From: a virus
Virus record (IMG/VR): IMGVR_UViG_3300049596_000327
Location: 1 to 32,329 of that record
Length of the DNA stretch: 32,329 nt
Reading direction: 5' to 3' (one strand)
Shown here: positions 3,346-11,722 of the stretch, one piece after another
How the letters are laid out: each line of letters starts with the position of its first letter
How positions within the stretch are numbered: the stretch's first letter is position 1
The notes under the pieces: generated by a model
Seen by the model: only the letters and a program-made list of their open reading frames with translations
The model's database searches: none
Told to the model about the DNA's origin: nothing
Program-made: the position numbers and the translations under genes

Positions 3346-4554
3346 TTATCGAATGAATGGTAAGCTATTTTGGTTTTCGTTTATCTGATAAGTTACTGCA
3401 TAACGTAAAGCATCTAAAGCATGGTTATATTTATCTATCGGAGTTTCACTCTTTTTTTCTAACCAACAATAGTTATTTAACTCTTTGATTAAGTCTATAC
3501 TACTTTCGTCTATTATTAAATCGTAATCCTGAATTAATGCAATACCAAAACGAACGGAATCCGCTCCTTTAACTGCAGGTTCAATGTTAAGTCCCCTATC
3601 CTGTAACTCGTTTATTAATCTAGGTTCTGCACAATCTGCAATTATCAATGAATCGTTAGCAAATGTTTTGTTAAGTTCATACACCTGCGAAGTGGTTAAG
3701 TGTGTTTGATAAATATGTAGTTTTACATAGATAATTTTATTAGCACTATCAATAGATGTTTCGATTAATGTTGTCGGGTCATTACTAAATCCAAAATCCT
3801 GACCGAATATACTCGGATTAACTTCTTTAAACTCGCCTACTTTCCAATTGTTAAAGATTACCCCCTCTGCTTTATCTAACCAACCTCCTAAAATAGTATG
3901 CTTATACTTTTCAGGTCTGCGTTTCTTTACGTCTTTTATTTGATTTAAGAAACTTTCAGAAAGGTTTTCGATATTATCTTCATAAGTTGTATGAATAAAC
4001 GTTGTGTCGCCTTTTTCAATATTGCTTCCCGCTTCAACTCCTTTAGCTTCAAAAAACTTTTGATAAATAAAATGCTCTTTCGTTGCAGGATTTAAGACTA
4101 ATATAACTCTATTTTGTTTTAGTTGGCTACGAATAGATAAATCAATCTTATCAAATACATCTTCATCCGTTAACTCCTCTGCTTCATCTAGTACCCAAGT
4201 TGTAACTCCGTTTAATGATTTAAGGTTAGCCGTTTGATTTCCACTAGAAGTCTTTAAACCTCTAAACAATATCTTTGAACCCGTCTTTAAATTTACTATT
4301 TCATCCTTTGTAATATAGAAATCGTTTTGCAATCCAGCTAACTCAATCTTTTCAATGAACTCTGGAATAATTGAAACGTGAGCAGATGTTAATGTATATC
4401 TAGTAAATAGTATAACGTGTCCAACTTCATACGTTAGAAGCTCTAAAAATACGGTTAAACCAAACGATTTCCCACTACCACGACCACCCGTTAAAACATA
4501 GTAACGTGAATCATTCGCAAATAGTGGAATGTACTTCTTATTTAAACTTAACAA
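3346..4554 (-). CDS. terL: Terminase large subunit (402 aa)
   Basis: The packaging motor ATPase and nuclease. Walker A is GGRGSGKS at residues 23-30, Walker B is VLDEAEE at 121-127, and the nuclease domain begins near residue 248 with FGQDFGFSNDP, followed by IADCAEP and, near the C-terminus, NHALDALRYAV. These are the acidic RNase H-like catalytic positions of the Terminase_3/PBSX-type TerL family, and the length is normal. It overlaps the small terminase by 17 bases. It cuts concatemeric DNA and pumps it into the prohead through the portal. The 31-base gap to the tail chaperone contains no gene. Confidence 0.95.
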   Translation of the reverse strand: MLSLNKKYIPLFANDSRYYVLTGGRGSGKSFGLTVFLELLTYEVGHVILFTRYTLTSAHVSIIPEFIEKIELAGLQNDFYITKDEIVNLKTGSKILFRGLKTSSGNQTANLKSLNGVTTWVLDEAEELTDEDVFDKIDLSIRSQLKQNRVILVLNPATKEHFIYQKFFEAKGVEAGSNIEKGDTTFIHTTYEDNIENLSESFLNQIKDVKKRRPEKYKHTILGGWLDKAEGVIFNNWKVGEFKEVNPSIFGQDFGFSNDPTTLIETSIDSANKIIYVKLHIYQTHLTTSQVYELNKTFANDSLIIADCAEPRLINELQDRGLNIEPAVKGADSVRFGIALIQDYDLIIDESSIDLIKELNNYCWLEKKSETPIDKYNHALDALRYAVTYQINENQNSLPFIR

Positions 4555-9075: not shown

Positions 9076-9362
9076 AATAATTCTATTAAGTTTTTGTTTT
9101 CTTGTTTTGCTTCTTCTAATTGTTTATCTACTCTCATTAATGCTATTTGATAGCTTGAAATTAATGTTTCGTTACTTCTTACTATCTTCTCTAACTCTAT
9201 AATGCAATTTAAAGCGTTTTTTATATCTTCTAAAGAGCTTTCTAGTAATTTAGTATAATTACCTTGACTATCTTTTTGATATGCCGTTATATGCAATATT
9301 TTTAAAGTAGCTTGTAAACTTCGTAAATTTACAATATTTAAGTTAATTTCTATTTGTGTCAT
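9072..9362 (-). CDS. Coiled-coil hypothetical protein (96 aa)
   Basis: Almost entirely helical with heptad-like hydrophobic spacing (DIKNALNCIIELEKIVRSNE; LMRVDKQLEEAKQENKNLIE). The start shares a base with the stop of the ATPase gene (TGATG) and the end overlaps the next gene by 4 bases. Function unknown; the position suggests a helper of the replication ATPase. Confidence 0.6.
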   Translation of the reverse strand: MTQIEINLNIVNLRSLQATLKILHITAYQKDSQGNYTKLLESSLEDIKNALNCIIELEKIVRSNETLISSYQIALMRVDKQLEEAKQENKNLIELL

Positions 9363-10327
9363 CAGAATGGGGTGTCATCAGGTTTAACATATTTTAATTC
9401 TGTTTGTATTGGTTTATCAAAATCACTCATAGCACTTGAAAGTGGTTTTATAACTAAATCATTTACAATACCATTTTTTCTTTTAATTGCATCTTTGCCA
9501 CCATTTGTAAAACCTAAACCGTAATTATAATTAAACATTAAAGGCACATTTAATTCTGTTTGTTTACCTCCCGTATCTCTATCTTTAATTTTTTCAACAT
9601 CGATTAAAGTTTGAAACTTCATTCCCTCATGTTTAACAAGTCTATGAATAACTATCATATCATCACATCTATTTAAAAAAGGTTTACCTCCCTCAATATG
9701 TGCTTTCAACGGTGGCTTTAAATGTCCCTCCCAAGGGTGTTTTGCTGGATAAATCATTGATGTTCTACCTGATTCACTTGTTGGATGTGTACTTAAATAA
9801 ATAGTTTTATTAGTTTGATTACAAAATTGTCGTGCATTATTTAAGAAATTGTAATTGTCTGCATGAGTCATCCCTCTATCTAAACCCGTAAAAGGGTCAA
9901 TAAAACATCCGTCCACTTCAATAGAGTTGAATATTTCTAAAAGTTGTTCAGGTTTATAAAGTTTTGAATTATCTACAAATTTAAACCAATGCTCAATTTT
10001 CATTTCATATCTACGGATTTCTTTGTAGTCTAAATCAAAATAGTTTTTACCTGAATACATTTGAATTAAATCCCTCATCACTTGACCACTTGAATTTTCG
10101 CCCATCCAAATACACCATTTCAAATCGTGTTGAGTTGATAAAGCTAACATATACCATTCAAACCAATAAGACTTACCAACATTATCATGTCCTAAAATAA
10201 TATTTAGTTGTTTACGCTTAAAAAGAATATAATCATCTAACTCAATTCCTAAACCTAAACCTTTCTGAACTTTACCGTCTCGGTAATCATTCAAGAATTT
10301 TGTACTATGTCCTGAATTTAATATCAT
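9362..10327 (-). CDS. RecA/DnaB-like replication ATPase (321 aa)
   Basis: Walker A GHDNVGKS at residues 46-53, an aromatic/acidic WMGENSS segment near 75, Walker B-like CFIDPF at 141-146, and a possible sensor histidine STHPTSESGR at 179-188. The fold order matches RecA/DnaB/RadA-type phage helicases without the DnaB N-terminal domain. It lies directly after the replisome-organiser gene (4-base overlap), the usual loader-helicase pairing, so it is the likely replicative helicase or a RecA-like ATPase. The C-terminus beyond residue 260 is low in motifs. Confidence 0.8.
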   Translation of the reverse strand: MILNSGHSTKFLNDYRDGKVQKGLGLGIELDDYILFKRKQLNIILGHDNVGKSYWFEWYMLALSTQHDLKWCIWMGENSSGQVMRDLIQMYSGKNYFDLDYKEIRRYEMKIEHWFKFVDNSKLYKPEQLLEIFNSIEVDGCFIDPFTGLDRGMTHADNYNFLNNARQFCNQTNKTIYLSTHPTSESGRTSMIYPAKHPWEGHLKPPLKAHIEGGKPFLNRCDDMIVIHRLVKHEGMKFQTLIDVEKIKDRDTGGKQTELNVPLMFNYNYGLGFTNGGKDAIKRKNGIVNDLVIKPLSSAMSDFDKPIQTELKYVKPDDTPF

Positions 10328-11055
10328 TGTTGATTAAGTTTTTTCATTATGTTTAAATAATAATCATCTTGTACTACTTCATTGTTTAATTTATGTGAAT
10401 GTAACTCAACTGTTTTTTCTCTAGATATGTATTCAGGAGTAATAAACTTATAACTTGTTTCTTTATGGTATTCGTCATTTTTAAGGTTATCAATTACAAT
10501 TTTAAATGTATCTTTAGGATAATCTTTTAAACGTGCATTAAATTGTTTCTTTGCTTTATCGTTTACTTTTTGAAATTTTTTATCAAAAGTTAAATTTATA
10601 TATTTTAAAAGTTTATCATAATCAATTGATGATTTATCATCTTCTTTTTGTTCTTGTTCTTCTTCTTCTTCTTCTTGCGATGCAGTATATATACCGTTTA
10701 CATACTCTATCAATACTCTATCTTTCACATTTAAAAGTTCTGATTTTATGCAACTTATAACTTTTGGAGACGTTGAACCATTAAATTTAGCCCAATTCCT
10801 TAATGCTATTTCTTTAGTACTGTCATTATACATTATTCTGTTATTATCAATAAAATATTTTAACAGTTTTGATACTCTATCTATACTATATCCTAAATCA
10901 AAAGAAATATGTTTTTTTGAAATTTCATATATACCACATTGTTTTGTTTTTTCATTAGTAAGTAAATATAAATAAAATAGTTTGTGGTCGTTATCTAAAT
11001 CTTGAATAAATGTATCAGACCAAAAAGAAGTGTGTATTTTTCTAAATATAGCCAT
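10324..11055 (-). CDS. Replisome organiser/helicase-loader-like protein (243 aa)
   Basis: The N-terminal part (residues 1-110) starts IFRKIHTSFWSDTFIQDLDN and reads as a winged-helix DNA-binding domain of phage replisome organisers. A run of Glu/Gln (residues ~127-140) forms a flexible linker encoded by GAA repeats. The C-terminal part (about 146-225) resembles the conserved phage C-terminal domain Phg_2220_C, with YINLTFDKKF and YKFITPEYI. It probably binds an origin and loads the adjacent ATPase. Overlap with that gene is 4 bases. Confidence 0.75.
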   Translation of the reverse strand: MAIFRKIHTSFWSDTFIQDLDNDHKLFYLYLLTNEKTKQCGIYEISKKHISFDLGYSIDRVSKLLKYFIDNNRIMYNDSTKEIALRNWAKFNGSTSPKVISCIKSELLNVKDRVLIEYVNGIYTASQEEEEEEQEQKEDDKSSIDYDKLLKYINLTFDKKFQKVNDKAKKQFNARLKDYPKDTFKIVIDNLKNDEYHKETSYKFITPEYISREKTVELHSHKLNNEVVQDDYYLNIMKKLNQQ

Positions 11056-11057
11056 GA

Positions 11058-11573
11058 TTAAAAACCTTTATTAGTTAAATTATAATTACTAATCTCTTTA
11101 AATTCAATTCCGTCAATACCATAAGAATATTTATATAATTCAACTTGTATTTTTGATTCTTGAAAAATTTCATCATCATAGATTGAATTACAAAATAAAT
11201 CTCCTAAATAACAAAATGAACTGTTTAAATCTATTTCTCTACCTATTAAGGTAATTTTATAATTAAATAAATGTTCTTTATCTTTATTATTTAAATATGT
11301 TTTAATTCCTTGTAAGTAATTTATAGCTTGAAAAAATGTGCTTACTCCTATTTTATCTTTTTTTAATTCAAGTATATTTATTACACCTTTAATTTTGCAT
11401 TTAAAATATTCATCATATCTTGGTAAAGATATTTCAACTAAATCTGCTATTCCATAGTTACCAATTTTAAATTGTCTTTTTAATATACCATGTAAATAAA
11501 GACCTTTATCTGATAATTTTTCTTTATCTGATAAGTAAATGATTTCTTCTAAATCTTTTTCAAAAAATTCCAT
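11058..11573 (-). CDS. PD-(D/E)XK nuclease-like protein (171 aa)
   Basis: Shows the order of a restriction-endonuclease-like fold: a helix with FEKDLEEII at 4-12, a strand with GIADLVEI and Asp44, a second strand INILELK with Glu69 and Lys71, then a helix with Gln82 (FFQAINYL). These are the usual D-(E)xK-Q positions. It is the first gene after the non-coding RNA/terminator region and is followed two bases later by the replisome organiser. Role inferred: nuclease in replication, recombination or defence. Confidence 0.6.
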   Translation of the reverse strand: MEFFEKDLEEIIYLSDKEKLSDKGLYLHGILKRQFKIGNYGIADLVEISLPRYDEYFKCKIKGVINILELKKDKIGVSTFFQAINYLQGIKTYLNNKDKEHLFNYKITLIGREIDLNSSFCYLGDLFCNSIYDDEIFQESKIQVELYKYSYGIDGIEFKEISNYNLTNKGF

Positions 11574-11596
11574 AACATTCCGTTATTTTAATACAT

Positions 11597-11648
11597 AAAA
11601 AAACCCTTTACAAACAATAGCTTCTCACTTCTATTATCTATAAAGGGT
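11597..11648 (-). terminator. Intrinsic terminator with 18-bp stem
   Basis: Arms ACCCTTTA (11648-11641) and TAAAGGGT (11610-11603) continue inward through U-G, A-U, G-U and then AATAG/CTATT without a break, giving an 18-bp stem and a ten-base loop AAGTGAGAAG. A run of seven A on the plus strand (11597-11603) gives the U-tract on the minus transcript. It lies between the promoter at 11694 and the nuclease start at 11573. Confidence 0.85.
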
Positions 11649-11687
11649 AAACCTAATTTCTTTGTTCAGTATTGTGAGAAGTGAACT
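11597..11687 (-). ncRNA. Candidate structured leader/small RNA with complementary hairpin loops
   Basis: A transcript starting just below the TATATTTG box would be about 90 nt and would consist of hairpin 1 (GTTCA ... TGAAC, 11686-11664, 13-base loop), a short A/U linker and the terminator hairpin. Loop 1 contains CTTCTCAC and the terminator loop contains GTGAGAAG, an exact 8-base complement. The loops could kiss, or the 5' segment could invade the terminator stem. It could be a regulatory RNA or an attenuator for the nuclease/replication genes. No known RNA family recognised. Confidence 0.55.
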
Positions 11688-11693
11688 ATGTCG

Positions 11694-11722
11694 CAAATAT
11701 AGTAATTTATTTTAAATACAAT
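11694..11722 (-). promoter_or_regulatory. Promoter-like site (ATTG-17-TATATTTG)
   Basis: Minus-strand -7 box TATATTTG (11701-11694), with ATTG (11722-11719) 17 bases upstream in an AT-only spacer, close to the Bacteroidota TTTG/TAnnTTTG pattern. It lies in the largest non-coding gap of the genome (11574-11788) directly before the structured RNA. Confidence 0.6.

Follow-up and report, generated by a model that had tools for sequence, protein, structure and literature searches.

The window, a 32.3-kb virus record, carries on its minus strand a promoter box, a 5' hairpin and an intrinsic terminator with an 18-bp stem in succession, with the loops of the two hairpins sharing eight complementary bases. 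The question raised by this locus is whether the match between the loops is accidental and, if it is not, what an RNA of this form would do directly before the genes that follow it.

The leader and the downstream genes in the window

The putative promoter comprises a Bacteroidota sigma-A -7 box, TATATTTG (11694..11701, minus strand, as are all features below), matching the consensus TAnnTTTG (PMC9723704), and a candidate -33 element TTG (11719..11721) 17 nt upstream of it, assigned from the sequence and by inference. As the flavobacterial sigma-A box TAnnTTTG spans positions -12 to -5 (PMC9723704), the predicted transcription start is 11689, from which the hairpin stem is 3 nt away; with the U tract (T-run, 11597..11603) taken as the end, the leader or small RNA would be ~93 nt long (11597..11689), in good agreement with the compact RNA of ~90 nt put forward in an earlier, sequence-only reading of this locus. 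Hairpin 1 (11664..11686) consists of the stem GTTCA (11686-11682)/TGAAC (11668-11664), predicted by RNAfold and covarying in relatives, and a 13-nt loop, CTTCTCACAATAC (11669-11681). The terminator hairpin (11603..11648), recovered both by RNAfold and in the alignment fold, pairs 11648-11631 with 11620-11603 in its 18-bp stem and presents a 10-nt loop, AAGTGAGAAG (11621-11630). The kissing segments, assigned from sequence, RNAfold and covariation, are CTTCTCAC in the loop of hairpin 1 (11674..11681) and GTGAGAAG within the terminator loop (11621..11628); they are perfect complements of each other, with no other copies in the window.

RNAfold of the window element returns exactly two hairpins (-23.4 kcal/mol, z -3.1), and inspection of the sequence shows the leader to be a single unit without repeats. 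The box, small hairpin, 18-bp-stem terminator and perfect eight-base loop complementarity described in the sequence-only reading are therefore confirmed by sequence and RNAfold. A simple terminator scan, which permits loops of 3-8 nt only, called no terminator at the window element, and a search of the window against Rfam 15 with permissive filters gave no match at the gathering score or at E values up to 1.

The first gene of the operon (11058..11573) starts at 11573, 24 nt past the U tract, and encodes a 171-aa protein with a PD-(D/E)XK-like residue pattern, in which D44, E69, K71, and Q82 are invariant. Its confident model (pLDDT 93.6) has an EndoMS/NucS-like predicted fold, with an EndoMS/NucS nuclease as the top Foldseek match in the PDB, albeit a weak one (E 8e-3, prob 1.00). 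It is followed by a DnaA/DnaD-like replisome organiser (10324..11055; phrog_6251, E 6.8e-45, and phrog_1701, E 8.8e-37) and a DNA primase/helicase-like ATPase (9362..10327; phrog_18375, E 9.7e-18, and phrog_239, E 4.9e-17). The position of the RNA before nuclease, replisome-organiser, and helicase-like genes, as first proposed, is thus borne out, and is compatible with either an attenuator or a free RNA.

Complementary loops in related loci

In this window alone, an eight-base match between a 13-nt and a 10-nt loop would be expected by chance with a probability of ~3e-4 (18 alignments x 4^-8), a value per hairpin pair that is non-negligible for a single window after many looks, and one that speaks for an ordinary terminator whose loop match is accidental. 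Relatives of the 171-aa protein were gathered from viral contigs with the RNA disregarded in their selection, and most show a box, hairpin, and terminator immediately upstream of the ATG. With a looser definition of the loops, the 5' part and the interior of the terminator share a perfect complement of at least 7 nt in 87% of 63 non-redundant loci, compared with 11% when these two parts are re-paired between loci. With a stricter definition, in which the apical loops are those predicted by RNAfold with complementarity ignored, 32 of 55 loci have matches of 7 nt or longer, the mean under permutation being 1.5 and the maximum 6 (2000 permutations, loops re-paired between loci); this removes the doubt about chance for the loop match of the window, which the sequence-only reading had likewise held to be unlikely by chance. 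A second anchor, an initiator family unrelated to the nuclease, yields the complete promoter, hairpin, terminator, and pairing in 56 of 76 loci compared with 0 of 380 shuffles, these loci being related, with 19 distinct pairings among the 56. The selection-free figures are those of these three tests. The detector demands a consensus box and 7 perfect pairs, and inspection by eye turns up probable cases that it overlooks, among them L363, L386, and L424; some loci under the 7-nt threshold (e.g. L183 and L163) appear to pair by longer stretches containing G-U pairs, without the first hairpin.

At least two classes can be told apart by sequence: class I (18 aligned), in which the pairing takes up the whole of a 7-nt loop, and class II (38 aligned), the class nearest to the window, in which 8 bases of a 13-14-nt loop are paired. 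In both classes the pairs of the loop-loop helix are Watson-Crick throughout (100%), with two-sided changes at 6 of 8 positions in class II (38 sequences) and 6 of 7 in class I (18 sequences), though both alignments hold only elements selected for pairing and show the variety of the pairing, not its frequency. As a control, sliding the partner by 1-3 columns lowers overall pairing from 95-99% to 20-51%. Both ordinary stems also covary in these alignments, and the alignment fold contains two hairpins only. Among individual comparisons, the most telling are those of L016 with L077, which show 99% identity beyond the paired segments and, within them, two substitutions per side that compensate each other in full, and of L036 with L068, which are separated by a single compensated pair. 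L133 carries the two loop sequences of the window exchanged. Compensatory change across relatives thus supports the kissing interaction suggested for the window, and rather than one loop changing without the other, which the sequence-only reading had named as evidence against it, the changes found are matched. By these comparisons the loop-loop match is real, not a product of chance; covariation, permutation, and the second-anchor counts together exclude an ordinary terminator with a chance loop match, the probability of which we consider negligible.

The letters of the pairing are highly variable, with 78 distinct pairings among at least 124 elements, and they diverge at about the same rate as, or faster than, the rest of the element, even though each change must be double. 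The contig of L083 carries two elements with different pairing letters, and such differences, together with the fast divergence, are what specificity against related copies would look like, without amounting to proof of it. Next to the pairing, class II also shows conservation of letters that are unpaired, namely AYTATA in loop 1 and a GAA/GGA-type internal loop in the terminator; class I lacks these letters, and the window has them only in part. The hairpin stem mostly begins 2-11 nt past the box, and the distance from one pairing segment to the other varies little (median 53 nt, most 48-57), which fits a contact in cis. Cis kissing, a pseudoknot, and pairing in trans all predict the same covariation.

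Occurrence before replication operons

A pattern scan, and a scan with another closing pair, revealed many further elements before other genes, including those for replisome organisers, DnaD-like loaders, replication-initiation and primosomal proteins, and primase/helicases, or alternatively short genes or HNH endonucleases first and replication proteins thereafter. The element usually sits immediately ahead of the leading gene of a replication operon, and many Bacteroidota viruses appear to open their replication gene block with a predicted kissing-hairpin RNA of ~93 bases. Of the link to the following genes suggested for the window, the part that holds is the tie to replication-initiator operons; the tie to the nuclease itself does not, as the element precedes many different operons, and an RNA specific to the nuclease was rejected because the element also precedes operons without one. 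In L083 (~4037-4411), and as the first open reading frame past the element in L048, L215, L259, L297, and L320, genes of HNH/NUMOD4-type endonucleases occur between the leader RNA and the initiator gene or have an element of their own.

Several isolated phages carry the element, namely Cellulophaga phi18:3 (pairing CTTCTGAC/GTCAGAAG), Cellulophaga phi19:3 and phi13:2 (pairing CTCTCACAA/TTGTGAGAG, found by eye), Olleya Harreka_1, Flavobacterium elemoA_1-5B, and Cellulophaga Nekkels_1. Searching isolate phages by BLAST with a single element recovers little, owing to drift of the letters, and anchoring on proteins works. In Bacteroides phage BF1-TP2 (L008, ~470-540) a possible element with TGTCGTA/TACGACA lies upstream of, but not directly before, the nuclease homologue. 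Among 84,980 bacterial and archaeal genomes, searched with one pattern, at least 18 matches were found, with a single listed match, on a metagenome-bin contig, satisfying the strict detector; within the scope of that one pattern, the element seems to belong to phages that for the most part do not form lysogens. An Rfam search of eight loci, several of them with the element, returned only a tRNA, and a literature search of open-licence PMC papers returned no description of the element, which thus matches no catalogued RNA family in Rfam and no account in those papers.

Phages phi18:3 (L006, 2542-2551) and phi13:2 (L345) are 97.8% identical until 2 nt past the -7 box, beyond which the leader RNA and initiator genes are unrelated, which suggests that the RNA and initiator were exchanged together, as what appears to be a cassette with the promoter at its edge. 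Between L016 and L066, a 131-nt block holding the element is 98.5% identical, with neighbours that are 75-83% identical or unalignable; this better conservation of the element suggests either that the RNA has a function of its own or that cassettes have been exchanged. In the contigs of L016, L066, and L077, further TAnnTTTG boxes are followed by short A-rich leaders running straight to the ATG without such an RNA, so that the element is the mark of a single operon and not of every promoter. A few kissing-loop elements lack an adjoining gene, namely those of L110 (2656-2755), L028 (~9847-9955), L045 (~2420-2525), and L026. The gap is ~650 nt in L110, ~160 nt in L028, and ~400 nt in L045, and tRNA-like or other non-coding sequence is in the vicinity of these three; two elements of the group are close to tRNA-like sequences. 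Such elements suggest that the RNA can also work alone, possibly as a free-standing species.

Possible attenuation and its alternatives

Given its position between the promoter and the first ATG, a gene behind the element must be reached through the terminator, which points to attenuation, and we give about an even chance, on sequence grounds, to the conserved Bacteroidota phage leader being a transcription attenuator of the replication-initiation operon. Comparison of the loci shows two hairpins, loop-loop pairing, a fixed promoter-to-ATG position, and a tie to replication-initiator operons; in 48 loci the ATG comes 8-34 nt after the end of the terminator stem, too close for another promoter to fit between. 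RNA polymerase would start at the TAnnTTTG promoter and make the 5' hairpin at once, with the intrinsic terminator following ~50 nt later and its loop base-pairing with the first-made loop, or with an unpaired 5' segment, to form a kissing or pseudoknot fold. Most transcripts would be expected to stop at the terminator, giving a compact and stable RNA of ~93 nt with both ends structured, and the replication genes would be expressed by regulated read-through into the first ATG just beyond the terminator stem. We infer that termination takes place here in vivo, that the mRNA comes from read-through, and that the efficiency of termination or the stability of the RNA is set by the loop contact.

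Attenuators with intrinsic terminators, such as those of the pT181 type and the expression platforms of riboswitches, place a promoter, a structured leader, and a terminator directly before the regulated gene. The element resembles these in having a promoter, leader, and intrinsic terminator right before the gene with no intervening promoter, but differs in lacking a conserved antiterminator stem and in pairing inside the terminator loop, and is filed here as a variant of an attenuator since the layout is present and the conserved antiterminator is absent. The shifted register TCACTTCT/AGAAGTGA, which the sequence-only reading had offered as a means of antitermination, is present in the window but in only 1 of 38 aligned elements, and no conserved antiterminator structure is seen in the alignment fold, which has two hairpins only. 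In relatives, the pairing is confined to the terminator loop and can form alongside the terminator stem, leaving a switch between mutually exclusive stems without comparative support. As the stem is spared, the contact probably coexists with the terminator, and probably tunes terminator folding or RNA stability rather than replacing the terminator. The confinement of the pairing to the terminator loop, with no mutually exclusive antiterminator visible, nevertheless weighs against attenuation, as do the few elements without an adjacent gene (L110, L028, and L045), in which attenuation of a gene is not obvious, and the better conservation of the element block than of its flanking genes (L016/L066). 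Overall, the element probably tunes the expression of replication genes.

A self-recognising control of copy number or exclusion has a small but real chance of being correct. The terminated RNA would pair in trans with the nascent leaders of other genome copies, or of a superinfecting phage with the same loops, and the altered termination would lower or set initiator synthesis as copies rise, with the loops diversifying in the manner of plasmid incompatibility determinants. The loops are always self-complementary whilst their letters are very diverse, the letters change in a compensated manner between otherwise near-identical elements (L016/L077) and differ between the two elements of L083, their divergence keeps pace with or exceeds that of the flanks despite the double changes needed, and the element precedes replication initiators; the P4 CI RNA (PMC4825925) and the diversification of ColE1 loops (PMC9458437) provide precedents. 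However, pairing in cis accounts for the covariation without action in trans and is suited by the tight spacing, the flanks are themselves constrained, making relative rates weak evidence for diversifying selection, and lysogenic (prophage) immunity appears unlikely, given the one strict element among the listed matches from bacterial genome assemblies. The specific form of a one-RNA device, in which the terminated RNA of one genome recognises the same-loop nascent leader of another and resets its termination, is unlikely; if it were true, initiator synthesis would track genome copy number, and loop identity would define compatibility groups among mostly non-lysogenic phages.

It is unlikely that the leader is a free small RNA with its main role in trans, directed at a protein or at targets in the host or phage, and made compact and nuclease-resistant by the kissing contact, with the downstream genes riding on read-through. 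The element has its own promoter and terminator, with an inferred start near the base of the hairpin, occurs without an adjacent gene, and can exceed its neighbours in conservation, all of which this would explain; against it, the letters are too variable for a fixed host target, and the constant position just before the ATGs of replication operons suggests a role in cis. Targets in trans within the same contig were likewise rejected, the pairing letters not being enriched elsewhere in the same loci (34 extra compared with 28.7 expected). In purine riboswitches, two hairpin loops of one RNA pair with each other, around a three-way junction and a conserved ligand core. The element shares the pairing of two loops of one RNA but has no three-way junction and no conserved ligand core, and its letters are not conserved; a leader sensing a ligand or protein, riboswitch-like or autoregulatory, with the loop-loop pairing as such a tertiary contact, would account for the conserved unpaired letters of class II, but these are wanting in class I and only partial in the window, Rfam gives no match, and no common metabolic gene lies downstream, so that we regard it as very unlikely. 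A signal at the level of DNA, such as an origin of replication or a single-strand structure, would suit the adjoining initiator genes, yet the strict -7 box just before, the T-run just after, the single strand orientation, and the point at which phi18:3 and phi13:2 cease to match, no more than 2 nt from the box, make it extremely improbable. A type III toxin-antitoxin RNA was rejected, as the leader is a single unit without tandem repeats and the element also precedes operons without the nuclease.

Amongst known systems, the logic of the element comes closest to that of satellite phage P4 CI RNA, an RNA that derives from the leader of the replication operon of P4 itself, pairs with the leader, and forces premature termination (PMC4825925). 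The element is similar in being a predicted RNA from a phage replication-operon leader with segments that are self-complementary by sequence, but has two segments only, both in hairpin loops and the second inside an intrinsic terminator; moreover, its carriers are mostly not seen in bacterial genomes. The nearest in structure is RNAI/RNAII of ColE1, whose loops make contact with each other and, on diversifying, give rise to compatible replicons (PMC9458437). Loop-loop pairing (7 nt in class I) in a replication-linked RNA, with loops that diversify by matched change, is common to both. In contrast, the ColE1 RNAs arise from opposite strands and their complementarity is automatic, whereas here one RNA needs double changes. 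Sense/antisense control of the ColE1 type was rejected, with -7 boxes for an antisense promoter opposite the leader found in 4 of 48 loci compared with 5 in shuffled sequence, which is not above chance.

With more than 70 naturally matched loop pairs before replication initiators across many Bacteroidota phages, the element may represent a common layer of RNA in the control of phage replication. These pairs form a natural library for the effect of a loop-loop contact on intrinsic termination, and for RNA-based compatibility in phages as in plasmids, with several of the carriers being isolated phages with cultured hosts.

A smaller feature is found at the start codon. In the window, a mini-hairpin TAAC-GGAAT-GTTA (11573-11585, minus strand) overlaps the start codon of the 171-aa gene, and in relatives L128-L204 a mini-hairpin ATAC-GGAAN-GTAT or TAAC-GGAAN-GTTA lies just before the ATG at 1501. 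Bacteroidota normally lack Shine-Dalgarno sequences. A perfect 4-bp stem of this start-codon mini-hairpin is present in 24 of 79 loci, and it may be a translational signal.
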